A stretch of DNA of 64,000 nt from Actinomarinicola tropica (lineage in GTDB: Bacteria; Actinomycetota; Acidimicrobiia; Acidimicrobiales; SKKL01), in NCBI RefSeq assembly GCF_009650215.1, contig NZ_CP045851.1:1155189-1219188 (forward strand), read 5' to 3'. Positions 4,697-62,098 of the stretch are shown one piece after another (the stretch's first letter is position 1; every line of letters begins with the position of its first letter). Both the position numbers and the translations under genes were made by a program. Under the pieces are notes generated by a model. It was not told the origin of the DNA and ran no database searches. It worked only from the letters and a program-made list of their open reading frames with translations.

Positions 4697-4740
4697 CCGC
4701 TCGGCCGGTAAGAATGGTCCTCCGAGCGAGGAGGCGGTCC

Positions 4741-5718
4741 ATGCCACATCGACTGGTCACCCTGATCCTCACGCTGTGCGTCATCGCCGCAGCGTGCGGT
4801 GACGACGGCGGCGACGATCCCGCGGCCGACCCCGCGGACGACACGACGACCAGCACCACCGAGGTCGAGGCCGACGGGGCGGAGGAGCCCCTCCCGGACA
4901 ACCTGGCCGACCTCGTGGGACCGAGCCCGGGACTCGATCCCGGGGCGGCTCAGCAGTGGTACCTCGACCGCGAGGTCGAGCGGCAGGAGGCCCTGGTGGC
5001 GTGCATGGACGAGGCCGGCTTCGAGTACGTGCCGGTCGACCCCGCCGAGCTGTCCGAGTCGCCGTGGGACGCCGACATCCCGTGGGAGTCCGACGAGTGG
5101 GTCGCGACCTACGGCTTCGGCGCCTCCACGCTGCGCTACCCGAGCTCGGTCCTCGGCCCCGACCTCGTCGGCTACGACGACCAGCCCGACGACGCCGAGC
5201 CGCATCCCAACCAGGTGTACGTGCAGGGCCTGCCCGAGGACGAGCAGGAGGCCTGGAGCGCCGCGCGCACCGACTGCGACGCCCGCGCCTGGCAGGACAG
5301 CCAGTCCGAGAACCTCGCCGCCGCGTTCAACGAGCGCTTCGCGGACGAGCTCGCCGCGATGTACGACGCCGTCCGTGACGACCCCCGCTACCAGCAGATC
5401 CTCGAGGACGTGCGGGCCTGCGTGCGGGAGACCGGCGTCGAGTACGTCGACCACGAGACGACCCTGAACGCCATCGAGGAGCGCCTCGCGCCGCTCGACC
5501 CCGTCATCGCCGACGGCACCCTCGACGAGGCGACCCGGGCCGAGCTGGCTGCCATCCAGCAGGAGGAGATCGCGGTGGCCACCGCCGTCGCCGACTGCGA
5601 CGGCCGCTTCCTCTCCGACAACCCCGACTACCAGGCCCTGCTCGCCGAGCACGAGGCCGAGTTCATCGCCGAGCACGAGGACCAGCTCCGCGACTTCCTG
5701 TCCCAGGCCGACGCCTGA
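4741..5718 (+). CDS. Secreted lipoprotein of unknown function
   Basis: This 325-aa protein has a classic lipoprotein signal: a basic start, the hydrophobic run LVTLILTLCVIAA, and a lipobox ending in AAC at about residue 19. An acidic Asp/Thr-rich linker follows. The mature part is helical and acidic, with paired cysteines (ACMDEAGF, TDCDARAW, VRACVRETG, VADCDGRF) that could form disulfides. The start is the ATG at 4741, which follows GAGGAGG by 5 nt; an upstream start at 4714 would add nine residues and spoil the signal. I recognise no enzymatic domain. The next gene is also a short acidic lipoprotein, so the two may be co-expressed. Confidence 0.7.
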   Translation: MPHRLVTLILTLCVIAAACGDDGGDDPAADPADDTTTSTTEVEADGAEEPLPDNLADLVGPSPGLDPGAAQQWYLDREVERQEALVACMDEAGFEYVPVDPAELSESPWDADIPWESDEWVATYGFGASTLRYPSSVLGPDLVGYDDQPDDAEPHPNQVYVQGLPEDEQEAWSAARTDCDARAWQDSQSENLAAAFNERFADELAAMYDAVRDDPRYQQILEDVRACVRETGVEYVDHETTLNAIEERLAPLDPVIADGTLDEATRAELAAIQQEEIAVATAVADCDGRFLSDNPDYQALLAEHEAEFIAEHEDQLRDFLSQADA

Positions 5719-5754
5719 GGCGGCTGCACCCCCCACCACGAGAGGACCCCCGAC

Positions 5755-6369
5755 ATGACCACCCGAGCCCTTCGACTCCTCGCGGCCGTGCTCGCCGCCG
5801 TGCTGCTCGCCGCGGCGTGCGGCGGCGACGACGACGGCGATGACGCCACCACCACGACCTCCGCCGAGGAGGCCGAGGAGGAGACGACGACCACCTCGGA
5901 GGCCGAGGAGGAGACGACGACCACCTCCGAGGAGACCACCGAGACCACCGAGGAGGCCGGCGGGACCACCGGCGGCACGCTCGACCTCGAGGCCCTCGCC
6001 GACGTCGACGACTTCTGCGAGCTCGAGTCGTTCGGCGACGACATCGACGACGCGATCTTCGACGACACCGCCGAGGAGCCTGCGACGCCCGAGCAGATGC
6101 AGGCCTCGTTCGACGCCATGTCCGCGTTCCTCACCCGGGCCAACCAGATCGCACCGGAGGAGATCCGCGCCGACTTCGCCCTGGTCTCCGAGGGCTTCCT
6201 CGAGCTCATCGGCCTGATGGCCGAGTACGACTACGACTTCATGGCCCTCGGGATGGCCGCCCAGCAGGACCCGGAGCTGGCCCAGCGCCTCGAGCTGCTC
6301 GAGTCGCCCGAGTACCAGCAGGCGTCCGAGAACGTCGACGCCTGGATCGACGCCAACTGCGGCGACTGA
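5755..6369 (+). CDS. Acidic lipoprotein with Thr/Glu-rich linker
   Basis: This 204-aa protein has a signal peptide (LRLLAAVLAAVLLAAAC) with the lipobox cysteine at about residue 22. A low-complexity linker of Glu and Thr (about residues 32-68) comes from a 30-bp tandem repeat. A helical domain of about 130 aa follows, with two cysteines (FCELESF near its start and NCGD at the very end) that may pair. The Thr-rich linker is typical of actinobacterial cell-wall-tethered lipoproteins. The function is unknown. AGAGGA at 5740-5745, 9 nt before the ATG, is a good ribosome-binding site. The gene ends base-to-base against the convergent ABC operon. Confidence 0.65.
   Translation: MTTRALRLLAAVLAAVLLAAACGGDDDGDDATTTTSAEEAEEETTTTSEAEEETTTTSEETTETTEEAGGTTGGTLDLEALADVDDFCELESFGDDIDDAIFDDTAEEPATPEQMQASFDAMSAFLTRANQIAPEEIRADFALVSEGFLELIGLMAEYDYDFMALGMAAQQDPELAQRLELLESPEYQQASENVDAWIDANCGD
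5871..5930 (+). repeat. 30-bp tandem repeat (two copies) in the lipoprotein linker
   Basis: The unit starting GGCCGAGGAGGAGACGACGA occurs at 5871 and again at 5901 with one late mismatch. It encodes alternating Glu- and Thr-rich decapeptides, so copy-number change would only lengthen the linker. Confidence 0.8.
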
Positions 6370-7089
6370 TCAGGCCACGTCGCGGCGGTGGAGGAACCGC
6401 GTAGTGAGGGCGATGCCGACCATCGCCACCAGCACCGGCACCACCACCGCCGCGATCGGGTCGATCGAGGCCAGGCGCAGCTCGACGTCGGCGGCCTCGG
6501 CGAGGATCGACCGGCCGTAGGCCTGGACCGACAGGCGGGCCGACCCGGTGCCGGCCCGGGCGACGAAGCCCTCCCAGATGAGCATGTAGGTGATGCCCCA
6601 GGCGAGGGCCCGCTTCACCCGCAGGCCGAGGGCGGTGAACAGACCCGAGTACGCGAGGCAGCAGACGGCCGCGGCCACGACGGTGCCGACGACCGCCCCG
6701 CCGTCGCCGCCGCTCGCGAGGGCCGCGGCGAGGCCGAGCGGGAGGGTCACGACCGGGAGCGAGACCGTCGCCGCGGCGAGGGTGGCCGCGGTGGCGATCG
6801 TCTCGCGTGGCACCGGCCGCAGCCACAGGTAGACGAGGGTGTTGTCCTCGGTCATGTCGCCGAGCGCCGCGGAGGCGAACACGAGCGAGACGACGGGGAC
6901 GAGCACCGACAGCCCGTAGCCGTTGACCATGTCGGCGGCGGACTGCACCCGGTCGAGTGGTTCGGAGGAGCCGATCGCCAGCCCGAGCAGGACGGCGATC
7001 GCGCCGAGCGCGACGAGCAGCGCCAGGCGTGCCTTGGTGGCGATGGCGCTCAGCACCACGCGGTAGATCGGTCCCAGTCCGTGCATCAC
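6370..7089 (-). CDS. ABC transporter permease (ABC-2 type)
   Basis: This 239-aa protein has about six hydrophobic segments. It contains the phrase FASAALGDMTEDNTLVYLWLRPVPRETIATA, typical of ABC-2-type permeases that pair with a separate ATPase. It is the last gene of a four-gene operon and overlaps the upstream ATPase gene by 4 bp, so it is probably that protein's membrane partner. The substrate is unknown. The gene's stop abuts the stop of the convergent lipoprotein gene. Confidence 0.75.
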   Translation of the reverse strand: MMHGLGPIYRVVLSAIATKARLALLVALGAIAVLLGLAIGSSEPLDRVQSAADMVNGYGLSVLVPVVSLVFASAALGDMTEDNTLVYLWLRPVPRETIATAATLAAATVSLPVVTLPLGLAAALASGGDGGAVVGTVVAAAVCCLAYSGLFTALGLRVKRALAWGITYMLIWEGFVARAGTGSARLSVQAYGRSILAEAADVELRLASIDPIAAVVVPVLVAMVGIALTTRFLHRRDVA

Positions 7090-41937: not shown

Positions 41938-42010
41938 GCCCCCATCGTCTAGCGGCCTAGGACACCACCCTCTCAAGGTGGCGGCACGGGTTCGAATCCC
42001 GTTGGGGGTG
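41938..42010 (+). tRNA. tRNA-Glu (CTC anticodon), island insertion site
   Basis: The 73-nt cloverleaf has acceptor GCCCCCA (41938-41944) pairing with TGGGGGT (42003-42009), including one G-T wobble, and discriminator G. The anticodon stem is CCACC/GGTGG with loop CTCTCAA (anticodon CTC). No CCA is encoded. Its 3' half from the anticodon loop onward is repeated at 60476-60520, so the copy here has been rebuilt by the inserted element. Confidence 0.95.
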
Positions 42011-42012
42011 CT
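41968..42012 (+). repeat. attL: 45-bp direct repeat in the tRNA-Glu 3' half
   Basis: The 45 bp from CCCTCTCAAGG to GGGGGTGCT are identical to 60476-60520. The repeat starts in the anticodon stem-loop, the usual crossover region for tyrosine integrases that target tRNA genes. Confidence 0.92.
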
Positions 42013-42552: not shown

Positions 42553-43623
42553 ATGCCCGAGGTTGACGAACTACGCCAGGAGGCTCGACGCAACACGCGC
42601 GGGCGATTCGAGCAGTGGGCGAAGAACCCGACCTGCCCGGCGAACACGCTGTCGGCGGTGCACAACGTGCGGCTCGACGCGGCAGCCCGCGCCGCAGGGC
42701 TGACGCCGAGCTTCGGTCAATCCCCCTTCGCGATTGCTCGCGGGAACCGGTTCGAAGCCGGCCTTTTCCACGACGACGCTGCTCGGCTGCGGAGCGCGCT
42801 CGAGCGGAAGCGCTGCCTCCCGGACGGATCCACGGGCTTTCTCGACCTGCGATTACGTATGAACGGCGGCACGAAGATCAAGTCGGTCGACGAAGCCCTG
42901 CAGAAGACCGAGGCGTGGCTGAGGGACTTGGCCTCGGGCCAGACGGACGTCGACTCGGTCGTTGCGGCGCCGATGATCCGGATCCCGAAGGGCGTCATCC
43001 TCCCGGAGGCACTGCTCATCATCGACGTCGTCACGGTGCGGGTCGATGGTGGCGGCATCCGTTTGCAGGTCGGGGAGATCAAGGTGTTCCCCGATCGGGG
43101 AGGCCACACGGACCCGCACCAGCTGGCGACCGCTCGTGCGCAGGCCGGCGTGTACCAGCACGCGCTCGTGCTCGCGATCGACTCGCTCGGCTTGGCCGAG
43201 GCCATCGAGATCTCGCCGGAAGGCTTGCTCGTGTTCACCTGGCCGGGATCGAACTCGCCGGCAATACGTCCGAACGAGGACCTGACCTACCAGGCAATCC
43301 GTGCGGAGCGCGGCTTCCAGCGGCTCGAGGAGGTGGCGGAGTCGCTCGTCCACGACGACGACTGGTCTGCGGACAACCCGACCCTCGTTCAGCGGGTTCT
43401 CGAGTCAGACACCGATTACTCCGAGGCGTGCTTGTCGTTCTGCGACCTGGCGCCTCGGTGTCACGAGCGGGCGGTGCTCGCCGACGACCCGATCATCCTC
43501 GGAGCGGACGTCAAGCGAGTGCTCGGCGACATGACCTTGAGCCGCGCCCTCGAACTGCTCGACGGCGCCGAGCCTGCGGATGATCGCGAGGCCGATCTTC
43601 AGCGCTCGTTGGCAGAGTCATGA
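42553..43623 (+). CDS. Cas4/RecB-like PD-(D/E)XK nuclease with Fe-S cysteines
   Basis: This 356-aa protein shows the full nuclease set: RGNRFEAG (63-70, like the Cas4 entry motif), D158 in LLIIDVV, E175-x-K177 in VGEIKVF, and Q197-x3-Y201 in AQAGVYQ. C28 plus C293-x3-C297-x5-C303 match the one-plus-three cysteine pattern that staples an Fe-S cluster in Cas4, AddB and Dna2 nucleases. It probably cuts single-stranded DNA ends. It is the first of three genes with 4-bp overlaps. The start at 42553 (MPEVDELRQEA) is preferred to 42472, which adds a low-complexity leader. Confidence 0.8.
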   Translation: MPEVDELRQEARRNTRGRFEQWAKNPTCPANTLSAVHNVRLDAAARAAGLTPSFGQSPFAIARGNRFEAGLFHDDAARLRSALERKRCLPDGSTGFLDLRLRMNGGTKIKSVDEALQKTEAWLRDLASGQTDVDSVVAAPMIRIPKGVILPEALLIIDVVTVRVDGGGIRLQVGEIKVFPDRGGHTDPHQLATARAQAGVYQHALVLAIDSLGLAEAIEISPEGLLVFTWPGSNSPAIRPNEDLTYQAIRAERGFQRLEEVAESLVHDDDWSADNPTLVQRVLESDTDYSEACLSFCDLAPRCHERAVLADDPIILGADVKRVLGDMTLSRALELLDGAEPADDREADLQRSLAES

Positions 43624-45182
43624 CCACGAGAGACGTCGTCCGTAAGCTCCGGGCCTGGCAGTCCGGCGCGCCGCTCGCACGCTTCGACACCCTGCACCAT
43701 GCAGTCGTCTCGCCGTCGCAGGCGATGGTCGCTGCCTTCGTCCGCATGGCGGGGGAGTCACGCCCGTGGGGCATCGCATGGGGGAAGGTTGGCACGGACC
43801 CGAAGATCGTTTCCGTGCCCGATGGCCGCGTCCGAGATGACGTGGCGGTCCTGTGCGCAGACTTCGCCGAGGATCTGCTGGCGCACATGCGGGTCCACAA
43901 CTGGACGTACGACCCCGTGGGGCAGACGGCAGCGCTCGACGAGTTGCGCCAGCTGTGGCTTCCCAACGGCCAACACCTCGCGATGCTCCACCAGCTGAAC
44001 TACACCTACTCGCAGACGAAGTTCGGCGGTGCCAACCAGGACATCTTGCAGGCCGTGGGCCGACTTGCGGGATGGATGTTCCGCGACTGCAGCCGAACCG
44101 GCCACCAACACGTCGTCGTCGCCAGCCAGGCGCTCGCACACGCCTACGCCTTCCCGGCGCAGGATGCCCGCACCGCTCACCTCGGATACCAGCTGGCCTG
44201 GCTGACAGCCAGCGGCGATCGGGTCGAGCGGATGGCCGCCGCCGCTGACGCAGAGCAACTGACGGTGTCCCCGACGATGGATCCCTCGCTCGAGCGCGAC
44301 GAGCTCTCCGGCCTCCTCGAGAAGTGGCAGGCCGGGCGCCGTGAGGGCGCCCCGCCCGCCGAGGTTGAAGCGGCGATCGCCGGCACCTTGTCCACCGAGC
44401 TCGACCGAAGGTGGCGACTCACCGAGCAGGCCTACCTCCTTCTCGCCGACGGCTCGCTACCGGTCAACCCCGGCGTAGACGCCCTGGTCGCCCAGGCGCA
44501 CAACGAGTTCTGGTTCCAGCACCAACGGATCGAGCTCCGGCAGAGCGACCCGAGTCAGGGTCCGGCTTTCATCGCCCACCCCGAGACCGACTTCCACGGC
44601 TCCTCCGCTGCGTCCCGATACCTGACCCATGCCTCCTACGACGAGGGGCACGACGGGCATCTGGTGCACCACGACGCCGAGTTGCTGCGCGACGCGCTCG
44701 CCGAAGGCCGCGCCCTTCGCGCAACCGTGACTGCAGTGGCCAATCATGGAAGCGGCCGGTCGACCATCCCGGTGTGGACCATCCGCGTCGATACCGACTC
44801 TCCCCATCGGCTCCGCGAGAATGGGCGGCTCGTGCCCTATGGCTCCCGCGGCCACGAGGCGACCGTCACGTCGGTCACGATCGACGAGGACGGAATCGAG
44901 CTCGACCTCGAGTGGACGACCCGCAAGACGATGAACCTCGCCTGCGGGATCGCGGGGAAGCCCGTCGATCCCGCTTGGATCGGCGAGTCCGTCCAGTTCG
45001 TCATCGCCGACGCTGCCGACCTCACCAGGCGCCGGAGTCAACGAGTGTGGGCAGCCAAGGATGGCCCTGGCGCGTGGCTCACCCACGGCAAGGCGCCCGC
45101 ACCGGTGCAGATCACCGACGATGACGGGGCCACCGACCTGCTCGTCGACGATGTCACCCAGATCACCGGAGCGACATCGTGA
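43620..45182 (+). CDS. Unrecognised 520-aa protein between nuclease and helicase
   Basis: I do not recognise a family. The N-terminal ~350 residues look mainly helical, with conserved-looking aromatic/basic patches (LHQLNYTYSQTKFGGANQDILQAVGRLAGWMFRDC). Residues ~360-490 look beta-rich (IPVWTIRVDTDSPHRLRENGRLVPYGSRGHEATVTSVTIDEDGIELDLEW). Its start overlaps the nuclease stop (ATGA) and its end overlaps the helicase start (GTGA), so all three products are probably made in step and act together. A beta-barrel placed between nuclease and SF1B helicase is what eukaryotic Dna2 has, so the C-terminal part may be that barrel; this is inference. Confidence 0.7.
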   Translation: MTTRDVVRKLRAWQSGAPLARFDTLHHAVVSPSQAMVAAFVRMAGESRPWGIAWGKVGTDPKIVSVPDGRVRDDVAVLCADFAEDLLAHMRVHNWTYDPVGQTAALDELRQLWLPNGQHLAMLHQLNYTYSQTKFGGANQDILQAVGRLAGWMFRDCSRTGHQHVVVASQALAHAYAFPAQDARTAHLGYQLAWLTASGDRVERMAAAADAEQLTVSPTMDPSLERDELSGLLEKWQAGRREGAPPAEVEAAIAGTLSTELDRRWRLTEQAYLLLADGSLPVNPGVDALVAQAHNEFWFQHQRIELRQSDPSQGPAFIAHPETDFHGSSAASRYLTHASYDEGHDGHLVHHDAELLRDALAEGRALRATVTAVANHGSGRSTIPVWTIRVDTDSPHRLRENGRLVPYGSRGHEATVTSVTIDEDGIELDLEWTTRKTMNLACGIAGKPVDPAWIGESVQFVIADAADLTRRRSQRVWAAKDGPGAWLTHGKAPAPVQITDDDGATDLLVDDVTQITGATS

Positions 45183-46492
45183 GCGAGGAGATCGACCAGC
45201 AGTACGTCGACCTACGCGCAGGGCTGGTCGCGCACCTGACCGGCGCCGGACGCCTCGCCGTCGTCAAAGCGCCGCCGGGTTCCGGCAAGACGCACACCCT
45301 GATCGAGGTGCTGTCGACCCTCGTCGGCGCGGGTCAACGGGTGGCGGTCGCCGCGCAGACGAACAGCCAGGCAGACGACATCTGCCTTCGGTTCGCCGCC
45401 GACCATCCCGAAGTACCAGCGTCGCGTTTCGCGAGCAAGGGATCGCTGCCGCCTGCGAACTTCCCCGTTTCGGTGCAGTGGCTCACGGCGACTGCTGAGC
45501 TTCCGACTTCGCCGGGCGTCACCGTTGCGACGACGGCGAAGTGGTCGCTCACCGACGTGGGTTCGCCCTTCGACCTCCTTGCCGTCGACGAGGCCTGGCA
45601 GATGAGCTGGGCCGACCTGATGCAGTGCGCACTCCTCAGCGAACGTTTCCTCATGATCGGCGACCCGGGCCAGATCCCACCCATCGTCACCATCGACGTG
45701 CGGCGATGGGAAACGTCACCACGTGCGCCTCATGAGGCTGCGCCTGAGGTCGTGCTCGCCGAACCCTCGCTCGCAGGGGAGATGTTCGTCGGGTCGCTCC
45801 CGGCATGCCGCCGCCTGCCCCACGAGTCGGTCGAGTTCGTGCTGCCCTTCTACGACTTCGACTTCGATGCCTTCGTCGAGCCCGGAGCTCGTGGCATCGA
45901 TCTTCCCGATGGGCACCAGCTCGCTGATCTGTCCGACGGCCGCCCGCTGGTGCTCACCGTGCCGACTCCAGATCACGGCCCGCCCCTGGAGGTCGACCCC
46001 GCCATCGCGGGGACCGCCGCCGCCGTGGTGGAGCAACTCCTCACCGCTGGCGCAACCGTTCGAGTTGGTGCTGTCGGGGAAGCCGGTCGTCCCATCAGCG
46101 CCGCCGACATCGGGGTGGCGAGCAGCCATCGAGTGATGAATGCGGCCATCGCCAAGGTCCTGGCCCCGCTGGGCGGAGCGATCCGGGTCGACACGCCGGA
46201 GCGCTGGCAAGGTCTAGAACGCCCGGTGATGATCGTGGTGCATCCGCTGTCTGGTGTGACCGATCCATCGGCGTTCGACCTGGAGACCGGCCGGCTCTGT
46301 GTGATGGCATCGCGTCACCAGTCGGCGCTAGTGATTCTGGCGAGGGATCACATCGGCTCGACGCTTGCCGACTTCGTCCCCAGCGCCGGGCAGGCCCCCG
46401 GACGACCGGACACGGTCGGTCGAGGTCACGATGCCCACATTCGGTTCTGGAGCGCTCTGGGGAGCCAGGAGCGGATCCGGCCCTTCATCTGA
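45179..46492 (+). CDS. Compact SF1 helicase, Upf1/Dna2-like
   Basis: This 437-aa protein has Walker A APPGSGKT (K37), a DEAW-type Walker B (D137-E138 in LLAVDEAWQMSWADL), motif III GDPGQIPPI (161-168), the CRRLPHESVEF motif-IV-like block, motif V in ERWQGLERPVMIVV, and a degenerate motif VI GRLCVMASRHQSALVI. This order is that of SF1B Upf1/Dna2 helicases, but with almost no accessory domain. The GTG start overlaps the upstream gene by 4 bp. Its end overlaps the convergent UvrD-like gene by 8 bp. Confidence 0.83.
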   Translation: MSEEIDQQYVDLRAGLVAHLTGAGRLAVVKAPPGSGKTHTLIEVLSTLVGAGQRVAVAAQTNSQADDICLRFAADHPEVPASRFASKGSLPPANFPVSVQWLTATAELPTSPGVTVATTAKWSLTDVGSPFDLLAVDEAWQMSWADLMQCALLSERFLMIGDPGQIPPIVTIDVRRWETSPRAPHEAAPEVVLAEPSLAGEMFVGSLPACRRLPHESVEFVLPFYDFDFDAFVEPGARGIDLPDGHQLADLSDGRPLVLTVPTPDHGPPLEVDPAIAGTAAAVVEQLLTAGATVRVGAVGEAGRPISAADIGVASSHRVMNAAIAKVLAPLGGAIRVDTPERWQGLERPVMIVVHPLSGVTDPSAFDLETGRLCVMASRHQSALVILARDHIGSTLADFVPSAGQAPGRPDTVGRGHDAHIRFWSALGSQERIRPFI

Positions 46493-49304: not shown

Positions 49305-51227
49305 ATGACCGAACAGCCCGAGAAGGTCGACCTGTCGACACCCGACCTGGCCGCTGCCAACCGTGACGCGCTGGCGGCGCTGTTCCCGGGTGTGCTCGCC
49401 GACGGGATCCTCGACGCGACCCGCCTCGGCGAGCTGCTCGACATGCCGGTCACGACCCCTGCCGATGGTCGGGAGCGGTTCGGGCTCATGTGGGCAGGCA
49501 AGCAGGAGGCCGTCCGGTCCCTTCTCACGCCGAGCCGTGGAACCCTGATACCCGACATGGAGCGTTCGGTCGACTTCGACAACGCGAAGAACGTCTTCAT
49601 TGAAGGCGACAACCTCGAGGTCCTCAAGCTGCTCCAGAAGGCCTACAACGACAAGGTCGATATTATGTACATCGACCCGCCGTACAACACCGGAAATGAC
49701 TTCATCTATGATGATGACTTCGCAGACGGGCTCACGGCATACCTCCGTTACTCCGGCCAGCTCGACGAAGCTGGTAATCGCCTTGCAGCGAGCAGTGACA
49801 CATCAGGAAGACTGCACAGCCGTTGGCTATCATTTATGTATCCGCGTCTGGTTCTTGCTCGAAATCTTCTGCGCCAGGACGGGGTATTGTTCGTGTCGAT
49901 CGACGACAACGAGATCCACAGCCTCAGAGCTGTTCTCGATGAGATCTTCGGGGAAGAGAACCTCATCGCCATTCTCGCAGTCGAGATGTCTAAGACGCAG
50001 GGCATGAAGGTGGCGGCGGCACAGAACGGAAGGCTGGTCAAGAACCACGAGTATGTGCTCGTGTACTCCAGGAACGTCGAGCTTGCTGCCGAGAATCGGA
50101 AACCCCTTTATGACGCTAGCGAGCGGTACGACGATCACTACGACATCGTATGGGACGGTGAGGGCGAAGCACGGACGCTCACGAAGGCGCTCGAGGCAGA
50201 CTCTCGCTTTCGGGAGTGGGCCCAGAAGTACTCCACTCCGCTATCGAAGGCTGGCCTCCGGAAGCTACTATCGCTCGAGGCCGAAATCTACGACTACTTC
50301 GTGACGGAATTCGCTAAGCGACTCTATCGTGAGAGCCCGATCTCACTTGACCGCGTGCAGGCGCTTGATCTTCCGCAAGGAGTCATTCAGCGATACGAGA
50401 AGTATCTTCTTCGAAAGAACTCGAAGGGAACAGTTGTTCAGCTTCAATCGTTCGCTGACGGCCTACGCGACACAGACGACTACGCCCCAATTCGCAGTAG
50501 AGCGACAATCCGCGGGGCGCTTTGGAAGGGCTTCCACTCCGACATGATGAACGTTGGCAAGGAAGGAGGTGTCGAGTTCAAGAACGGAAAGAAGCCAGTA
50601 CGCCTGATCAAGCAGCTGATCAAGTGGGCGAACCGCCCAGATGGTCTCGTATTGGACTTCTTCGCAGGCTCCGGGACAACTGGCCACGCTGTCGCTGCCA
50701 TGAATGCTGAGGACATGGGCACCCGCAGGTTCCTGCTTGTTCAGTTGCCGGAGCCCCTCAACGGCAAGTCCGATTCGCTGGTTTCCGACTTGACCTGGAA
50801 GCGCCTCTCGAACGTCCATAGCGAGTTCCCGTCATGGGGGGGTGTGCGTTCGTACCGGCTGGGAACGAGCGCCTTTCGTGGAGCGGGTGACTCTCACGGC
50901 GGCGAGCTGTTCGACTTGAGCGAGAGCACGCTCTCTTCTATCGATCGCGGGGAGGACGCTCTAGCGTGCGAGATCCTCCTAGCGGAGGGCGTCTCGCTCG
51001 AGTCCGATTGGTTGAGATCGACAGTCGGTGACCACATGCTGATCATCGGCAGCGGAGTCGCAGTCTTACCCAGTGTCGCTCTCGATGAGAATCTCGTTCT
51101 GTCCACCCTGACGTCGGCCGCGTCCGTTGTCATCTTCCTCGAGGATGGGTTCGCCGGTCAGGACACGCTCAAGGCAAACGCCTTCACCCGGTCCCGTGAG
51201 CTCGGCATCACGATGAAGACGGTCTGA
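49305..51227 (+). CDS. mod: Type III restriction-modification DNA methyltransferase (Mod)
   Basis: This 640-aa beta-class N6-adenine methyltransferase has the catalytic motif IV DPPYNTG at 124-130 and the AdoMet motif I LDFFAGSGTTG at 450-460. A long target-recognition region (about 210-420) lies between them. This order (IV before I, large central insert) is typical of type III Mod. It modifies one strand of an asymmetric site and guides Res. The central part has a visibly lower GC content (52-60% in sampled lines) than its neighbours. The ATG at 49305 starts the conserved text; the frame is open far upstream only by antisense chance. The stop overlaps res by 1 nt. Confidence 0.93.
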   Translation: MTEQPEKVDLSTPDLAAANRDALAALFPGVLADGILDATRLGELLDMPVTTPADGRERFGLMWAGKQEAVRSLLTPSRGTLIPDMERSVDFDNAKNVFIEGDNLEVLKLLQKAYNDKVDIMYIDPPYNTGNDFIYDDDFADGLTAYLRYSGQLDEAGNRLAASSDTSGRLHSRWLSFMYPRLVLARNLLRQDGVLFVSIDDNEIHSLRAVLDEIFGEENLIAILAVEMSKTQGMKVAAAQNGRLVKNHEYVLVYSRNVELAAENRKPLYDASERYDDHYDIVWDGEGEARTLTKALEADSRFREWAQKYSTPLSKAGLRKLLSLEAEIYDYFVTEFAKRLYRESPISLDRVQALDLPQGVIQRYEKYLLRKNSKGTVVQLQSFADGLRDTDDYAPIRSRATIRGALWKGFHSDMMNVGKEGGVEFKNGKKPVRLIKQLIKWANRPDGLVLDFFAGSGTTGHAVAAMNAEDMGTRRFLLVQLPEPLNGKSDSLVSDLTWKRLSNVHSEFPSWGGVRSYRLGTSAFRGAGDSHGGELFDLSESTLSSIDRGEDALACEILLAEGVSLESDWLRSTVGDHMLIIGSGVAVLPSVALDENLVLSTLTSAASVVIFLEDGFAGQDTLKANAFTRSRELGITMKTV

Positions 51228-54200
51228 TGACGGTCGAGATCCGGTTCGATCCGAACCAGGCGTATCAGCGGGAGGCCATTGACTCGGTCGTCGAGCTCTT
51301 CGCAGGCCAGGAGGCGCTCGAGCAGGGCCTCGGGATGCCAAGCCTCTCGGAGGACGGATCACTCTTCGAGGAGCTCGTGTTCGGCAACTCCTTGGAACTG
51401 AGCGCCGAGACCGCTCGCAAGAACCTCCGACGCGTACAGGACCGCCCCATTCTACTCGACGATGGTACGGAATTGCCCGCAGTCGGCGAGTCATCGCGTC
51501 GAGCGCTTCAAGACGGCGAGATGCCGGCGCACTTCAACATCGAGATGGAGACCGGCACGGGCAAGACGTACGTCTACCTGCGGACCATTGTCGAGCTCCA
51601 CCTCAAGTACGGGTTCCGCAAGTTCGTGATCGTGGTTCCCAGCGTTGCCATCCGGGAGGGTGTCCTCAACAGCCTGGCGCTGCTCCGCGACCACATCCGC
51701 GACCTCTACGACGGGCTCCAGTACGACCACCACGTCTACGACGGTGGGGCACCGGGCCGAGTTCGTCAGTTCGCAACCGCCTCCCACCTGCAGATCATGG
51801 TGATCAACATCGCCGCGATGACCGGCGACGCGAACACCCGGCTCATCCACCGGCGTACCGACGCCCTGAACGGCTACGCCCCGATCGAGTTCCTGCGCGC
51901 CTGTAGGCCGATTGTGGTCATGGACGAGCCGCAGAGCCTCGACGGCCCCACCCAGGTTCCGGCCATCGACGCCCTCCATCCACTGTTCCGGGTCGGGTAT
52001 TCCGCGACACCGCCGGTCGGAGCACACCTGCTGTACCGGCTGACCCCGGTCGACGCGTACAACCAGCGCCTCGTCAAACGGATCGGCGTGTTCTCCCTCA
52101 CCAAGGACGACGACCTCAACGAGGCCTACGTCGAGGTGAAGAAGATCAATGCGACGAAAGGTTCGGTGACCGCGACTGCCGTCATCCACACCGCCACCAA
52201 GCAAGGCACGAAGCCCACCCAGAAAACCCTTCGCAAAGACGACGATCTCTTCGACCTCAGTGGCCAACGTGACGTCTACGCCGGCTGGGTCGTCGAGGAC
52301 ATCCTCGCAGACAAGGGCGTCGTCCAGTTCGCCAACGGCCGCAGCATCGCCGCGGGCTCGACGAGCTCGGACACCGATGATCAGCAGCAGCGGCTGATGC
52401 TGCGCCAGGCGATCGTGAGCCACTTCGAGAAGGAGCTCCAGCTGTTCCTGCTCGGCAAGCGTGGCCAGCTCGCAGCGACGTTGAAACCGCTCACGCTGTT
52501 CTTCATCGAGAGGGTCGCCGACTACCACCCAGCCGACGCGAAACTTCGGACCTGGTTCGTCGAGGAGTACGAGTCGGTCCGCAGCGACGCCCGGTTTCGT
52601 GCTATCGCTCCGCAGATGCCGGCGGTCGACGATGTGCACGACGGCTACTTCGCAGAGACCAAGGGCGTGCCGAAGGACGCGAGGGCGGACTCGAAGGATG
52701 CTGCGGATGCGTTCGAGCGCATCATGCGGCGCAAGGAGGATCTGCTCGGATTCGACGAGCCGCTCCGGTTCATCTTCAGCCACTCCGCTCTCGCAGAGGG
52801 ATGGGACAACCCGAACGTCTTTACGATCTGCAACCTGCAGAAAGGCAAGTCGGTGATGCGCAAGCGGCAGCAGGTCGGCCGCGGCCTGCGACTGCCCGTG
52901 ATGACCAACGGGGACCGCTGCCACCTCGAGGACGTGAACCTCCTCACCGTGGTGGCCAAGGAGTCGTTCTCGTCCTTCGCCGACAAGCTCCAGAAGGAGA
53001 TCGAGGAGGAGACCGGCGTCGCCTTCACGGGTCGCATCGTCAACGTGCGCGACAAGAAGCCGGTGAAGCTGAAGGAGGACGTGCTCGAGTCGCCTGAGTT
53101 CGGCGAGCTGTGGCAGCGGATCTCCCGGCTCACCTCCTATCGCCTGACCTTCGACACCGATGTCGTTGTCGCGAACGCCATCGAGCGAATCGACGGCATG
53201 CCGGCAGTCGAGAAGGCGAAGTTCCACCTCTCCAAGAACGAGGTGACAGTCGGTGCTGGGGGCGTGGGTGGCGATGGTGGAATCGACCTCGGCGCGGTGG
53301 AGTCCGAAGCAGCGATCAAGGTGCCGGACGTCGTGCGTGAGTTGTGCCGCCGGTTGCCGTTGAGCCGGGCGACGATCGTGCGCATCCTGAAGGGATGCAG
53401 CCGCCTCGACGACGTGAAGGCGAACCCGGCGGTGTTCATCGACCAGATCGCCGACTGCATGAACCGCGCTCTCTACGGCGAGCTCAGCGAGACCATCGAG
53501 TACACGCCGTCTGGCGAGTCATGGCCGGCGTCGATGTTCCGCGACCGGCACCAGGACGAGACGGTCGCTCCGAGAGTGGTTCCCGTGAACCGGAGCATCG
53601 TCGACATGGTCGTCTGCGACTCCGAGGTCGAGGAGAAGTTCGCTGTCTACCTCGATGGGCGCAACGACGTGCCGCTCTTCGTGAAGCTGCCCGAGTGGTA
53701 CAAGATCCCGACGCCGCTCGGGAACTACAACCCGGACTGGGCGCTCGTGCGGGACCGGGAGAGCGACCGCCGCTACTACCTCGTGCGGGAGACCAAGGGT
53801 GGCTCCGACATCGAGAGGCTGCGCTGGGAGTCGGAGGGATGGAAGATCCGGTGCGGCGAAGCGCACTTCGACGCGATCGACGTGGACTACGCGTTTGGGC
53901 ACGATCCGGTAAAGCTGATCGAACCGTCCGATATCGCCCCGGTGGTGCCAATCCGTGTGCCGCGGCTCGTGGACGACGCGGACCCCTCCGATCGGTTCGT
54001 GACGCATCTGCCCGTGTACTCGCTCGAGGCAGCTGCTGGCTACTTCGGCGACGGCCACGATGTCGAGCTCGATGGCTGGGTTGACGTCGGCGACCAGCTG
54101 GCTCGGATCGACGACTCCATGTTCGTCAGCCAGGTGGTGGGTCGCTCGATGGAGCCGTTGATCCCCGACGCGTCCTACTGCATCTTCCGACGCATCCCTG

Positions 54201-54436
54201 CAGGTTCCCGCCAGGGAAAGGTCGTCCTGGCACAGCACCACTCCATCGACGACGTCGAGACCGGTGGTTCGTACACGGTCAAGCGGTACGAGAGCCACAA
54301 GCAGGAGACGGACGGCGAGGTCGTCGGCAGTATCGAGCTGCGCCCCGTAAACCCGGAGTTCGAGCCGATCGTGCTCGAGCCGGGAGACGAGGCCGAGGTC
54401 CAGGTCATCGCTGAGCTGGTGACGGTCCTCGGCTGA
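51227..54436 (+). CDS. res: Type III restriction endonuclease (Res) fused to LexA-like S24 peptidase domain
   Basis: This 1069-aa protein has SF2 helicase motifs METGTGKT (107-114, K113), DEPQ (233-236), GYSATPP (257-263) and QQVGRGLR (548-555). The endonuclease is in P836-D837 (YNPDWAL) and E855-T-K857 (RETKGG). After residue ~925 there is an extra ~140-aa domain: LPVYSLEAAAGYF, GRSMEPLIPDAS with S974, and GSYTVKRY with K1019. This is the Ser-Lys dyad layout of S24 peptidases (LexA, UmuD, phage repressors), and AAAG could be a self-cleavage site. Ordinary type III Res proteins end after the nuclease. Translation is coupled to mod. Confidence 0.88.
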   Translation: MTVEIRFDPNQAYQREAIDSVVELFAGQEALEQGLGMPSLSEDGSLFEELVFGNSLELSAETARKNLRRVQDRPILLDDGTELPAVGESSRRALQDGEMPAHFNIEMETGTGKTYVYLRTIVELHLKYGFRKFVIVVPSVAIREGVLNSLALLRDHIRDLYDGLQYDHHVYDGGAPGRVRQFATASHLQIMVINIAAMTGDANTRLIHRRTDALNGYAPIEFLRACRPIVVMDEPQSLDGPTQVPAIDALHPLFRVGYSATPPVGAHLLYRLTPVDAYNQRLVKRIGVFSLTKDDDLNEAYVEVKKINATKGSVTATAVIHTATKQGTKPTQKTLRKDDDLFDLSGQRDVYAGWVVEDILADKGVVQFANGRSIAAGSTSSDTDDQQQRLMLRQAIVSHFEKELQLFLLGKRGQLAATLKPLTLFFIERVADYHPADAKLRTWFVEEYESVRSDARFRAIAPQMPAVDDVHDGYFAETKGVPKDARADSKDAADAFERIMRRKEDLLGFDEPLRFIFSHSALAEGWDNPNVFTICNLQKGKSVMRKRQQVGRGLRLPVMTNGDRCHLEDVNLLTVVAKESFSSFADKLQKEIEEETGVAFTGRIVNVRDKKPVKLKEDVLESPEFGELWQRISRLTSYRLTFDTDVVVANAIERIDGMPAVEKAKFHLSKNEVTVGAGGVGGDGGIDLGAVESEAAIKVPDVVRELCRRLPLSRATIVRILKGCSRLDDVKANPAVFIDQIADCMNRALYGELSETIEYTPSGESWPASMFRDRHQDETVAPRVVPVNRSIVDMVVCDSEVEEKFAVYLDGRNDVPLFVKLPEWYKIPTPLGNYNPDWALVRDRESDRRYYLVRETKGGSDIERLRWESEGWKIRCGEAHFDAIDVDYAFGHDPVKLIEPSDIAPVVPIRVPRLVDDADPSDRFVTHLPVYSLEAAAGYFGDGHDVELDGWVDVGDQLARIDDSMFVSQVVGRSMEPLIPDASYCIFRRIPAGSRQGKVVLAQHHSIDDVETGGSYTVKRYESHKQETDGEVVGSIELRPVNPEFEPIVLEPGDEAEVQVIAELVTVLG

Positions 54437-54757: not shown

Positions 54758-56044
54758 ATGCTCGTGGTGCGTGGAACGAAGAAGCTCCGGGATCGGGTGA
54801 AGGGCCCGGCTGTCGGCGAAGACGACGTGTCGACCGGCGTGCTGGGCGACTGGTTCGCCACTGCGCTGTTCTGGAAGCCCCAGGTGGCGCTGGCGGTCAA
54901 CGCCCGCACGTTCCTGCCAGTGTTCATGCCGTTGGCGCCAGCCGCGAAGCTGGTCGACCGGCTCCCCGATGAGATCGCCCGGATCCTGACGCTGCACGGT
55001 GTCGAGCCAGGGGTGATCGGGGCCGAGCGGGAAGCCATGGCCGAGGTGCGCATCGCTCCCACCAACGATCGCAGCGTGGTCGGGGTGATGACCGAGTTCG
55101 CGTTCCTGGGCGAGCACTGGTTCGACGGCGACCTCACCGCCCTGTCCCTGCGCATGGCCGGTACCCCAGTCGGCCCCCTGCGCTCGGGCGACGGCTTCCC
55201 CGACCAGGCGCTCGCCGCGCTGGTCGGCGACATCGCTCCAAGTGCCGGCGGCCTGGCCGAGGTGATCCCGTTCCCCGGGACGGACGTTCCCGCGGCCACG
55301 TCGCCTGCGCCGAGCAAGTCCAGAGGTGCCGTGAGCCCCGCGATCGAAGGCATTGACCCGCCGAGCGGTGCCCCATCGGTTTTCCAGCTCAAGGTCACCC
55401 TGCTCAACACGAAGCCGCCGATCTGGCGGCGGATCCTCGTCGACGGCTCGATGACCCTCGCCGAGCTGCACGAGGTCATCCAGGCCGCGTTCGGGTGGTG
55501 GAACTGCCACCTCCACGAGTTCGAGATCGGCCGCGCCCGCTACGGGACCCCCGACCCGGACTGGGACTTCGGACCGCCGACGAACGATGAGCGCACCACT
55601 CGCCTCGACGCCGTCGCCAGCGAGGGCGTCTCGTTCCACTACACCTACGACTTCGGTGACGACTGGCGCCACAAGGTCACCGTCGAGAAGGTCGGCGCTG
55701 TGGAGCCGGGCACGGCCGTTCCTGACTGCATCGGTGGCCGCCGGGCGTGCCCGCCCGAGGACTGCGGCGGGCCGTGGGGCTACCACGACCTCCTCGAGAA
55801 GGTCGGCGCTGTGGAGCCGGGCACGGCCGTTCCTGACTGCATCGGTGGCCGCCGGGCGTGCCCGCCCGAGGACTGCGGCGGGCCGTGGGGCTACCACGAC
55901 CTCCTCGAGTCGCTCGACGGTCGTCCCGGGGCGTCCGATGCTCGGCTCGACTACGTCGGCGCCGACTTCGACCCGGCAGCCTTCGACCCGAGCAACTTCG
56001 CGCTGAACCTGGCCAACATCCGGAACACCAGCTTCGACATCTGA
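54758..56044 (+). CDS. DUF6933 / pRiA4b ORF-3-like protein with internal duplication
   Basis: This 428-aa protein has an N-terminal DUF6933-like domain (about 1-130: MLVVRGTKKLRDRV, VLGDWFATALFWKPQVALAVNARTFLPVFMPLAP). A Pro/Ala linker follows, then a C-terminal pRiA4b ORF-3 domain (about 208-428: FQLKVTLLNTKPPIWRRILVDGSMTLAELHEVIQAAFGWWNCHLHEFEIG). The CIGGRRACPPEDCGGPWGY block occurs twice because 111 bp are duplicated exactly. Neither domain has a firm function; pRiA4b-type proteins are common on plasmids and islands. GGGAG lies 11 nt before the ATG. Confidence 0.82.
   Translation: MLVVRGTKKLRDRVKGPAVGEDDVSTGVLGDWFATALFWKPQVALAVNARTFLPVFMPLAPAAKLVDRLPDEIARILTLHGVEPGVIGAEREAMAEVRIAPTNDRSVVGVMTEFAFLGEHWFDGDLTALSLRMAGTPVGPLRSGDGFPDQALAALVGDIAPSAGGLAEVIPFPGTDVPAATSPAPSKSRGAVSPAIEGIDPPSGAPSVFQLKVTLLNTKPPIWRRILVDGSMTLAELHEVIQAAFGWWNCHLHEFEIGRARYGTPDPDWDFGPPTNDERTTRLDAVASEGVSFHYTYDFGDDWRHKVTVEKVGAVEPGTAVPDCIGGRRACPPEDCGGPWGYHDLLEKVGAVEPGTAVPDCIGGRRACPPEDCGGPWGYHDLLESLDGRPGASDARLDYVGADFDPAAFDPSNFALNLANIRNTSFDI
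55685..55906 (+). repeat. Exact 111-bp in-frame tandem duplication
   Basis: Bases 55685-55795 and 55796-55906 are identical and encode the same 37 residues (EKVGAVEPG through YHDLL). There are no differences, including third positions, so the duplication is very recent or is an assembly error. Confidence 0.95.
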
Positions 56045-56777: not shown

Positions 56778-57962
56778 TCACCAGTCGTCCGTCGCAGCGG
56801 TGACCGTGGTGCTGAGGTCGCCTCGGACGCCGACGTAGCGGGAGAGCGTGAAGGCGGCGTTGGCGTGGCCGAGCAGGGTGGCGACCACCGCGGGGTCGAG
56901 GTGGACGTCGAACAGGAGCCAGCACGCGGCGACGTGGCGCAGGTCGTGGGGATGCCAGACCGCAGCGGTATTGCGCTTCATCGGCCAGCCGGCGTCACGG
57001 GCGGCGCGAGCCCAGGTCCGCTGGAAGGTGCGTCGGTTGGCGAAGCCGCCGTCGGATCCGGGGAACAGCAGGCCCTCGCGCCCGCGGGCGCGCTCGACCT
57101 GGTTTGTCCAGTCATGGAGCGGTTCGACGAGGCTGGCCGGGAACGTCGACACCCGGTGTTGGCGGTTCTTGGTGCCCTTGATCGCCAACCCCTGGCGGGA
57201 CTGTTCGACGGCTCGCTGCACCCGGACCACCCGTTGCGGCTCGAAGTCGAGGTCGATCGGGCGGAGCGCGATCAGCTCCCCCCATCGGAGTCCCGACCGG
57301 TGCTTGAGCTGCATGGCGAGGGCCCAGGTGGGTTGGCCTGCCGCGTCGAGGGCCTTGAACAGCCGTTTGCACTCCCCGTCGGTGGGCAGCGACGACCGGG
57401 GGATGAACCCGATCGCCTGACCGTGGACCTCAGCGGTCGGGCTGTAGCGGACCAGCCACATGGGGTCCGCCTCTCGCGGGATCCACCGGTTCTTGAACGC
57501 GAAGGTCACCAGTGCCCGCATGGCCGAGCCGACGTTCTGCACCGTCGACGGAGCGAGGGTGCGCCGGGCCCGATCGAGCACGGCCTCGGAGTCCGAGGGT
57601 GTCCAGGCCGAGAGCTCGTGATCGCCGAGCACGGGGCGGACCCACATGCGCAGCAGGTACTCCTGGCGCTCGGCGTAGCGGGTCGACCGAGACGACAGGC
57701 TCACCAGGTAACGGTCGATCAACCCACCAACGGTCGTGGGCGCGCTCGCTCGCCCGGGCAGCAGCACCGACGACGCGAGGCGGCTCTCGATCTCGCGGGC
57801 TCGGTGGCGGGCCGCCTCCTCGCTGGAGAACTTGGCGAACACCCGTTGGCCGTCTGCGTCGGTGGCGACGACCCGGTAGCGGGGCTCGCCCTCGGATGGT
57901 GCGTAGATGCGGGTGCCGTACTCGAACGACACGAGTGGCTTGCGGCGGCGGTAGCCGGCCAC
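56778..57962 (-). CDS. int: Tyrosine recombinase (site-specific integrase)
   Basis: This 394-aa integrase has an N-terminal arm-binding-type region (RYRVVATDADGQRVFAKFSSEEAARHRA), a core-binding SAM-like domain (about 75-175) and the catalytic domain. Active-site residues are R226 (SGLRWGEL), K262/K265 (KGTKN), H339 and R342 (HPHDLRH), H366 (LLGHAN) and Y376 (LSRYVG). All are present, so it should be active. The GTG start at 57962 follows AGGAGGA by 8 nt. It most likely inserted the island at tRNA-Glu. No excisionase gene is adjacent. Confidence 0.95.
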   Translation of the reverse strand: MAGYRRRKPLVSFEYGTRIYAPSEGEPRYRVVATDADGQRVFAKFSSEEAARHRAREIESRLASSVLLPGRASAPTTVGGLIDRYLVSLSSRSTRYAERQEYLLRMWVRPVLGDHELSAWTPSDSEAVLDRARRTLAPSTVQNVGSAMRALVTFAFKNRWIPREADPMWLVRYSPTAEVHGQAIGFIPRSSLPTDGECKRLFKALDAAGQPTWALAMQLKHRSGLRWGELIALRPIDLDFEPQRVVRVQRAVEQSRQGLAIKGTKNRQHRVSTFPASLVEPLHDWTNQVERARGREGLLFPGSDGGFANRRTFQRTWARAARDAGWPMKRNTAAVWHPHDLRHVAACWLLFDVHLDPAVVATLLGHANAAFTLSRYVGVRGDLSTTVTAATDDW

Positions 57963-60475: not shown

Positions 60476-60520
60476 CCCTCTCAAGGTGGCGGCACGGGTT
60501 CGAATCCCGTTGGGGGTGCT
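60476..60520 (+). repeat. attR: 45-bp direct repeat of tRNA-Glu 3' half
   Basis: Identical to 41968-42012. The 5' half of the tRNA is missing here, so it is not a functional tRNA. It marks the right boundary of the island. Confidence 0.92.
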
Positions 60521-60710: not shown

Positions 60711-62098
60711 CCCGTGGAGTGGTGGAAGTAGGTCTGTGAGCCTTGGCTTCGCCAGCCTGAGGTTACGCGGCTGGCAGCGCAGGGTTCGTCGTGGTCACCT
60801 CCGTGGGGTCGGGATCGATGGCGGCCATGCTCTCTTCGGAGAGGTAGCGGCGTTCGGAGATGGCCCAGTCGTCGTGTTGGTCGAGCAGGACGGCGCCGAC
60901 GAGGCGGATGACCGAGGCGTCGTCGGGGAAGATCCCGACGACGTTGCTGCGGCGCTTGATCTCTTTGTTGATCCGCTCGAGGGGGTTCGTGGAGGCGATC
61001 TTGCGCCAATGCGCCCGGGGGAACGCGGTGTGGGCCAACACGTCCGCTTCGGCGCCCTCCAAGATCGCGGCGGCCTTGGGGAACTGACCCTCGAGGACCC
61101 CGACGACCTCATGCAGCTGGGCCCGGCACCCCTCTGCGGAGGGCTGGGCGAAGATCGTGCGGACCGTCGCGGCGACCATGTCTTTGGACGCGGAGGGCAC
61201 GGTGCCCAAGATGTTGCGCATCAGATGCACCTTGCAGCGCTGCCAGGACGCGCCGGCGAGCACTCGTGGGATCGACGCCTTCAGCCCGGCGTGGGCGTCG
61301 GAGATGACGAGGCGCACTCCGCTGAGGCCTCGGTCCTTGAGGCCGCGGAGGAACGCGGTCCAGAACACCTCGTCTTCGCTGTCGCCGACGTCGACACCGA
61401 GGACCTCGCGGTCACCATTGGCGGTGACACCGGTGGCGACCACGACGGCCCGGGAGATGATCCGGTGGTTGATGCGGGCCTTGATGTAGGTGGCGTCGAG
61501 GTACAGGTAGGGGAACTCGACGTGGTCCAGGCGTCGGGTGCGGAACACGGCGACCTCTTCGTCGATCCCCGCGCAGATCCGCGACACCGTCGACTTCGAC
61601 ACCCCCGACTCACACCCCAGCGCCTGGACCAGATCGTCGACCTTCCGGGTCGAGGTGCCGGTGGTGTAGGCGGTCATGATCACACCCCACAGCGCCTTGT
61701 CGACCCGCCGGCGCGGCTCGAGCAGCGACGGGAAGAACGACCCGACCCGCACCTTGGGGATCCGCAGCTCCACATCACCCGCCGGCGTGGACAGCAGTCG
61801 GCTCCGAGAGCCGTTGCGCTGGTTGGTGCGGCTGTCGGTTCGCTCGTGGGGGCCGGCACCGATCGCGGCGGTGAGCTCGGCGTCGATCAACTCCTGCATC
61901 CCCGCCTCGAGCAGCCGGCGGAACAGCTCCTTGCTGTCACCATCGCCCAGACGCGCCAGCAGGTCAGCAACTCGGGCATCATCGTCATGGGTCATCGCGT
62001 GAGTTCCTTCCAGTGAGTGCTTTCGCAGGTCTCACCAAGGCTCACGCGATGGCCCAACCCATGGGGGGACCGTCTCGCTACCTACACCACCTCACGGG
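60711..62098 (-). mobile_element. IS256-family insertion sequence
   Basis: About 1.39 kb bounded by imperfect 22-bp inverted repeats: CCCGTGGAGTGGTGGAAGTA at 60711 and, inverted, CCCGTGAGGTGGTGTAGGTA ending at 62098. A second short inverted pair GTGAGCCTTGG (60736-60746 and inverted 62035-62045) lies just inside. Length and gene content fit IS256. I could not see a target-site duplication. Confidence 0.75.
60763..61995 (-). CDS. IS256-family transposase
   Basis: This 410-aa DDE transposase has D167 (YLYLDATYIKAR), D233 (LVISDAHAGLK) and E340 (ASTNPLERINKEIKRR), with the CKVHLMRNIL region between. This is the Mutator/IS256 signature, including the C/H-rich spacer. It is full length with no stop or frameshift, so it is probably active. 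It fills almost the whole insertion sequence. Confidence 0.95.
   Translation of the reverse strand: MTHDDDARVADLLARLGDGDSKELFRRLLEAGMQELIDAELTAAIGAGPHERTDSRTNQRNGSRSRLLSTPAGDVELRIPKVRVGSFFPSLLEPRRRVDKALWGVIMTAYTTGTSTRKVDDLVQALGCESGVSKSTVSRICAGIDEEVAVFRTRRLDHVEFPYLYLDATYIKARINHRIISRAVVVATGVTANGDREVLGVDVGDSEDEVFWTAFLRGLKDRGLSGVRLVISDAHAGLKASIPRVLAGASWQRCKVHLMRNILGTVPSASKDMVAATVRTIFAQPSAEGCRAQLHEVVGVLEGQFPKAAAILEGAEADVLAHTAFPRAHWRKIASTNPLERINKEIKRRSNVVGIFPDDASVIRLVGAVLLDQHDDWAISERRYLSEESMAAIDPDPTEVTTTNPALPAA

Follow-up and report, generated by a model that had tools for sequence, protein, structure and literature searches.

The window analysed here is a stretch of 64,000 nucleotides from Actinomarinicola tropica (contig NZ_CP045851.1, positions 1,155,189 to 1,219,188), in which three overlapping genes, referred to as A, B and C, lie in this order on an 18.5-kb island at tRNA-Glu, flanked by a perfect 45-bp repeat of the tRNA 3' end (Table 1). 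An original prediction, made from the sequence alone, read the trio as the domain order of eukaryotic Dna2, namely an iron-sulphur (Fe-S) nuclease, a beta-barrel protein and a superfamily 1B (SF1B) helicase, split over three coupled genes on a mobile island beside restriction genes. The gene boundaries were borne out, with A running from ATG to TGA and C starting with GTG, as were the 4-bp overlaps at both junctions, ATGA between A and B (43620-43623) and GTGA between B and C (45179-45182), through which coupled translation is proposed. The mobile setting also held, since the island possesses attachment (att) repeats, a tyrosine integrase and a type III Mod/Res pair.

A helicase possibly divided between C and B

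Gene C is, judged by its sequence, a predicted SF1B motor of the Upf1/DNA2 group, in agreement with the minimal helicase originally proposed. It matches Pfam AAA_11 and AAA_30 and contains the complete superfamily 1 motif set, including motif I (PPGSGKT), Ia, II (DEAWQM), III (GDPGQ), V and VI, all nearly invariant in 22 sequences. In a profile comparison with the Protein Data Bank (PDB), the best match was mouse DNA2 (E 2.9e-15), followed by SMUBP-2 (IGHMBP2) and then by 9KWF, a 2025 structure of a 434-aa helicase; the portion of text found for 9KWF names neither an operon nor a partner. C thus carries the SF1B core of the Upf1/DNA2 group that marks the DNA2-like class. Against PADLOC it gave weak partial matches only, the best being MkoA and MkoC, and no relatives of C were detected in 50,697 phage records. 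The Walker A motif of C starts approximately 30 residues from the N-terminus, too near for the N-terminal 1B barrel of the Upf1/DNA2 group to fit in.

The protein encoded by B in the window has no match in Pfam, NCBIfam, PADLOC, PHROGs or the PDB sequences, and the B profile produced chance matches only against the PDB. Profile searches of B, which the original prediction had named as a check, found no relative outside the family in the sequence libraries and did recover the plasmid B-like proteins described below. PADLOC 2.0.0 yielded no match to A and no significant match to B, with one partial match (E 0.0077) in the viral contig L067. In the PDB searches with the A and B profiles, a match to a designed repeat protein at 4e-11 was rejected as spurious, being composed of nine sub-threshold pieces.

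In the AlphaFold2 (AF2) model of B, the only well-modelled part is a beta-barrel at residues 353-466, where 10-residue blocks mostly reach a predicted local distance difference test (pLDDT) score of 60-83. The sequence outside the barrel is mainly helical and of low confidence, so that the beta-rich C-terminal half originally claimed for B shrinks to residues 365-462. When the barrel was compared with 1000 aligned PDB chains, ranks 1-7 were all occupied by barrels of SETX, Sen1 and IGHMBP2, at Z 9.0-10.0. From what is established about these helicases, the matched segments are their domain 1B. Since these matches represent exactly the piece missing from C, and since the barrel precedes the motor, the modelled barrel of B seems to be domain 1B of an SF1B motor, with the helicase split between B and C. 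A 1B beta-barrel N-terminal to the helicase core would accordingly be placed on B, in a low-confidence model and with a small margin over other barrels.

Large plasmids of Rhodococcus, Mycobacterium and Xylanimonas carry a B-related protein of about 395 aa directly before a C-like helicase, without A. Profile comparison linked this protein to B with a probability of 87% (E 4e-6), and the member from Euzebya was found at E 3.4e-8 in a six-sequence search. These pairs support B-C as the motor and A as an added nuclease. On the plasmids (L061-L065), the pair closes a conserved operon of a MoxR ATPase, a VWA protein, a small protein, the B-like protein and the C-like helicase; Euzebya possesses only the last three genes, adjoining a cytosine methyltransferase.

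Gene A, a predicted Fe-S nuclease

A is taken as a predicted Cas4/RecB-type Fe-S PD-(D/E)XK nuclease, and every residue that the original prediction had named is at its position. Across 33 loci, the cysteines C28, C293, C297 and C303 (C293-x3-C297-x5-C303) are invariant, as are D158 and Q197, while Y201 is kept in 32 and E/D175 and K177 in 30 each. Most homologues read PD...EIK, the textbook PD-(D/E)XK motif. A putative four-cysteine iron staple spanning a RecB-family nuclease domain, another mark of the DNA2-like class, is therefore found in A. Pfam PDDEXK_1 was weakly matched by two of 16 A homologues; the window protein itself has no match in Pfam, NCBIfam, PADLOC or PHROGs, the A profile gave chance matches only against PDB sequences, and its comparison with the nuclease domains of D, TM0106 and PprPDDEXK returned nothing convincing. 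The AF2 model of A is poor (pLDDT 45.5), with the helix-strands-helix-strand order expected of the nuclease fold, and the fold search reached human EXO5, an Fe-S RecB-like nuclease, only at Z 3.0. Structure prediction of the proteins singly, proposed earlier as a check, thus gave a model of moderate confidence for the barrel of B, which best matches 1B barrels, and poor models for A and most of B.

In three related loci (L037, L095 and L096), A lacks the catalytic E and K (E to L and K to R, reading VVLIRSF) and keeps all four cysteines, a loss seen in no other A among the 33 loci. The same three are the only loci among those inspected in which a separate PprPDDEXK nuclease gene adjoins the trio. 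This looks like replacement of the active site of A by the PprPDDEXK nuclease, with A kept as a structural part, and such loci offer a natural test of subunit exchange.

Linkage and distribution of the trio

In a survey of 396 Actinomycetota genomes, with the A and B profiles run separately, both matched one and the same set of 16 genomes and 18 loci. In 17 of these loci C adjoins A and B, and in the remaining one it lies about 30 kb away, so the expectation that the three genes travel together was upheld. The order A-B-C recurs at every A locus but one in the survey, which argues that the arrangement is not due to chance, and the distances measured pairwise for A, for B and for C correlate with one another (Spearman 0.88-0.93). 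A chance "Dna2-like" resemblance was rejected on the basis of this linkage together with the residue conservation. Every locus read has A, B and C as separate genes, and no fusion was seen among the B-profile matches of the survey; the nuclease and helicase on one polypeptide that characterise the Bad/Dna2 class are not found in the trio.

Of 101 Streptomyces species, 99 carry B, and the locus is mostly a conserved chromosomal one. In viral contigs, single-sequence scans and scans with the A1 and A2 profiles found no relatives of A, B or C, and a scan with the A3 profile found one locus, on the IMG/VR contig L067, whose B, used as a query, recovered only the same contig. L067 encodes all three genes with 4-bp overlaps, and the trio there lies between integrase genes and Vsr/Dcm. 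The trio may also occur outside Actinomycetota. No description of the three-gene form was found in the open-access literature, although one elsewhere is not excluded.

The island and other genomic contexts

Table 1. Features of the trio and of its island, in positions of the window
Feature	Position	Strand	Evidence or remark
tRNA-Glu (ctc)	41938..42011	+	Island integration site; ARAGORN
attL, 45-bp repeat of the tRNA 3' end	41968..42012	+	Perfect direct repeat
Gene A, predicted Fe-S PD-(D/E)XK (Cas4/RecB-like) nuclease, 356 aa	42553..43623	+	Full or nearly full conservation of the four Cys and the catalytic residues, 33 loci
Gene B, 520 aa, without family model	43620..45182	+	Position between A and C conserved, 24 of 25 loci examined
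B residues 353-466, beta-barrel resembling domain 1B of Upf1-like SF1B helicases	44676..45017	+	AF2 and fold search
Gene C, predicted minimal SF1B (DNA2/Upf1-type) helicase, 437 aa, without 1B	45179..46492	+	Pfam, profile, motifs
Gene D, fusion of a UvrD helicase with a PDDEXK_1/Cas4-like nuclease, 925 aa	46485..49262	-	Pfam, NCBIfam
Gene E, type III Mod methyltransferase, 640 aa	49305..51227	+	PADLOC MTase_III, E 7.8e-129
Gene F, type III Res ending in an S24 peptidase domain	51227..54436	+	PADLOC REase_III, E 9.2e-218; Pfam
Island gene, DUF6933 fused to a pRiA4b ORF-3-like domain	54758..56044		Internal 111-bp tandem duplication (55644-55865)
Island tyrosine integrase	56778..57962	-	Pfam Phage_integrase, 5e-20; PHROG integrase
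attR, 45-bp repeat of the tRNA 3' end	60476..60520	+	Perfect direct repeat
Mutator-family transposase	60763..61995		Just outside attR

The contexts of the trio map onto clades. In the clade of the window, which includes L004, L005, L006 and L010 and spans Acidimicrobiia, Cellulosimicrobium and another actinobacterium, D, E and F are always present, so that the UvrD-Cas4 gene and the type III Mod/Res pair accompany the trio in five of five close loci. In the window, D carries a Cas4-like nuclease on the C-terminal side of its UvrD helicase and stands next to both type III subunits, E being Mod and F being Res. A check for an empty integration site in genomes of the same genus and family did not find the right-flank gene there. 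In L009, sister to this clade, a TM0106-type gene encoding a protein with an RNase_H_2 domain follows the trio in place of D, E and F.

Residues 929-1064 of the window Res form an S24 (LexA/UmuD-like) peptidase domain, in which GRSMEP and YTVKRY offer a plausible Ser and Lys, respectively. This domain, which could couple restriction to DNA damage, is also found in the Res of L005 and is absent from those of L006 and L010. In the metagenome-assembled genome of L004, B (1304-2860) and D (4175-6946) contain two in-frame stops each, indicating a decaying copy or assembly errors.

In non-core actinobacterial clades, a conserved fourth gene, X, encodes a protein of about 256-291 aa without a Pfam or NCBIfam match. 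It lies directly upstream of A in L013 (8074-8916), with homologues in L014, L015, L034, L036, L037 and L090-L097. Many gene-X loci lie opposite SbcD/SbcC, and in three of these Wadjet follows downstream; the PprPDDEXK nuclease is found in others, in one case (L096) with type III Mod/Res nearby; and the last group is the chromosomal Streptomyces operon, whose downstream genes are common to most loci. Modules of the form SbcCD-X-A-B-C, found at L091 (84-9625), in G492:C1 (B matches at 21507 and 10654192) and at L013, occupy the very ends of linear Streptomyces chromosomes or a site near the end of a linear plasmid, making a link to linear-end processing possible. Since the more distant trios adjoin SbcCD, Wadjet, Dcm/Vsr or another nuclease, and since nearly all Streptomyces species carry B, the trio is not only a defence module. 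The new kind of defence nuclease-helicase announced by the original prediction is accordingly tempered: most members found belong to a conserved Streptomyces chromosomal operon, and mobile copies do recurrently stand beside restriction genes.

Proposed mechanism and alternative explanations

A, B and C are probably subunits of one three-subunit 5'-3' helicase-nuclease that degrades DNA ends and is coupled, in this island, to restriction. This split DNA2-like reading is drawn from the overlapping genes in fixed order, their co-inheritance and correlated distances, the closeness of C to DNA2, and the likeness of the B barrel to 1B; Bad, a single-chain analogue with a type III Mod-like neighbour, is counted in its support. 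Also in its favour are the plasmid B-like/C pairs, the apparent replacement of the A active site by the PprPDDEXK nuclease, the six-gene co-occurrence in the window clade, and the trios near type III Mod/Res (L096) and Dcm/Vsr (L067). The gene structure, the residues, the co-inheritance, the contexts and the island are direct observations, and we infer the identity of the barrel, the formation of a complex, its polarity, its substrate and its defence role. C would supply the two RecA-like domains of a 5'-to-3' SF1B motor, the C-terminus of B would supply the 1B beta-barrel of that motor, and the N-terminal 350 or so residues of B would serve as a scaffold joining the motor to A, which would cut the strand being pulled through. 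On the island, Mod would protect the host and Res would break unmodified incoming DNA, whereupon the 5'-3' trio and the 3'-5' UvrD-Cas4 protein D, with polarities expected from their helicase families, would enter at the ends to unwind and degrade both strands. Acting together, the trio and D would resemble the two opposed motors of RecBCD.

Several observations weigh against this interpretation. The AF2 model of B is poor overall (pLDDT 42.6), the margin of its barrel is small, with unrelated barrels appearing from Z 8.5 and Upf1 at 7.7, and the low-confidence model of A gave no confirmation of a nuclease in the fold search. The three A proteins that lost their active site beside a second nuclease represent one evolutionary event, not three. 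Moreover, two genomes have D without the trio, D and Mod/Res may suffice for defence by themselves, and the near-universal presence of B in Streptomyces speaks for a cellular role, either alongside defence or in its place.

The margin of the barrel, weak over riboflavin-synthase-like barrels, and the lack of any sequence match of B to a helicase would also suit A, B and C as linked but separate enzymes, with B an unrelated DNA-binding adaptor whose likeness to 1B is an accident of a common fold. This is quite unlikely, given that the seven best barrel matches are all 1B of the helicase group to which C itself belongs, that C lacks 1B, and that B-like proteins precede C-like helicases even where A is missing. 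A serious alternative, owing to the near-universal presence of the trio in Streptomyces, is that it is primarily a housekeeping processor of DNA ends and replication intermediates, a bacterial functional counterpart of Dna2, and that the mobile copies repair or tidy up breaks made by their own restriction or Wadjet systems instead of attacking invaders. Vertical inheritance is indicated by the downstream genes shared by 10 of 11 Streptomyces loci of the chromosomal clade (Prim-Pol in nine), and the mobile copies beside SbcCD, a Mre11-Rad50 homologue, echo the partnership of Mre11 and Dna2 in eukaryotic resection (PMC2625443). In several clades, however, mobile elements repeatedly pair the trio with restriction and anti-plasmid systems, and the trio is absent from most other sampled Actinomycetota, which implies that it is not generally needed for repair; this account is rather unlikely.

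It is distinctly improbable that the trio maintains its mobile or linear replicon, through end processing, replication start or transfer, with the restriction genes as mere co-residents of variable DNA. The SbcCD-X-A-B-C modules at linear ends and the B-like/C pairs in the fixed MoxR-VWA operon of large actinobacterial plasmids would fit such a role, but the window copy resides in the chromosome, on an island equipped with an integrase and att sites of its own, and the same three partner genes have been kept from Acidimicrobiia to Cellulosimicrobium.

Beyond the three-subunit helicase-nuclease preferred here, a broader proposal is tentatively entertained, in which the trio would represent an undescribed family of three-subunit DNA2-like machines, core in Streptomyces, that process DNA ends for whichever system makes or holds them, be it SbcCD (Mre11-Rad50), Wadjet, type III restriction or Dcm/Vsr. 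Such a machine would form a bacterial counterpart of the Mre11-Dna2 resection pair, with the helicase split inside its first domain. If the trio is indeed DNA2-like, such an enzyme is present in practically every Streptomyces species, hosts that are genetically tractable, and its partners, SbcCD, Wadjet, type III restriction-modification and Dcm/Vsr, suggest DNA-end processing for both repair and defence. The three-gene form further allows motor, scaffold and nuclease to be removed singly, unlike a single-chain enzyme.

Comparison with known systems

The island unit comprises six genes, three of which are already described as a defence neighbourhood, namely a UvrD-Cas4 fusion with type III Mod/Res (PMC5704561). 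This neighbourhood corresponds to D, E and F of the window, and the available part of that source does not mention the trio. RecBCD and AdnAB combine motors of both polarities with a RecB-type nuclease acting on DNA ends, which the island system may resemble by analogy, although their subunits share no homology with the island proteins beyond the superfamily. The TM0106/TIGR03491 family consists of Cas4-like nucleases, and in a plasmid member the same polypeptide also includes a C-related helicase; at the curated cut-off, TIGR03491 matched none of A, B and C, nor anything in the whole genome of the window.

Eukaryotic Dna2 (PDB 5eaw) has the Fe-S nuclease and SF1B helicase in the order of the trio and is the best PDB relative of C by profile, but it is a single essential protein, and A and B have no detectable sequence similarity to it. 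The Dna2 domain order originally claimed for the three genes therefore stands as an order of nuclease, barrel-bearing protein and SF1B helicase, while the split seems to fall inside the helicase and a bacterial enzyme lies nearer. Bacterial DNA2-like enzymes are regarded as rare and sporadic, with a role that is not known (PMC7430649). Among them, Bad from Geobacillus stearothermophilus is a single-chain, monomeric 5'-3' helicase-nuclease, whose gene lies beside a type III Mod-like methyltransferase and which has been proposed as a possible part of a novel restriction enzyme (PMC7430649).

The single-chain Bad is the closest described enzyme, nearer than eukaryotic Dna2. Like the trio, it possesses an iron-staple RecB-family nuclease, a large central region of unknown structure and an SF1B helicase, in the same order and with similar lengths: D150 and Walker K815 of Bad compare with D158 and a Walker Lys at about 913 when the three chains are numbered consecutively. 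The trio comprises three genes and Bad a single polypeptide, and the central domain of Bad was compared with B by description only; for these two reasons the trio is not filed as a member of the Bad/Dna2 class, although, by analogy, it would work like one.

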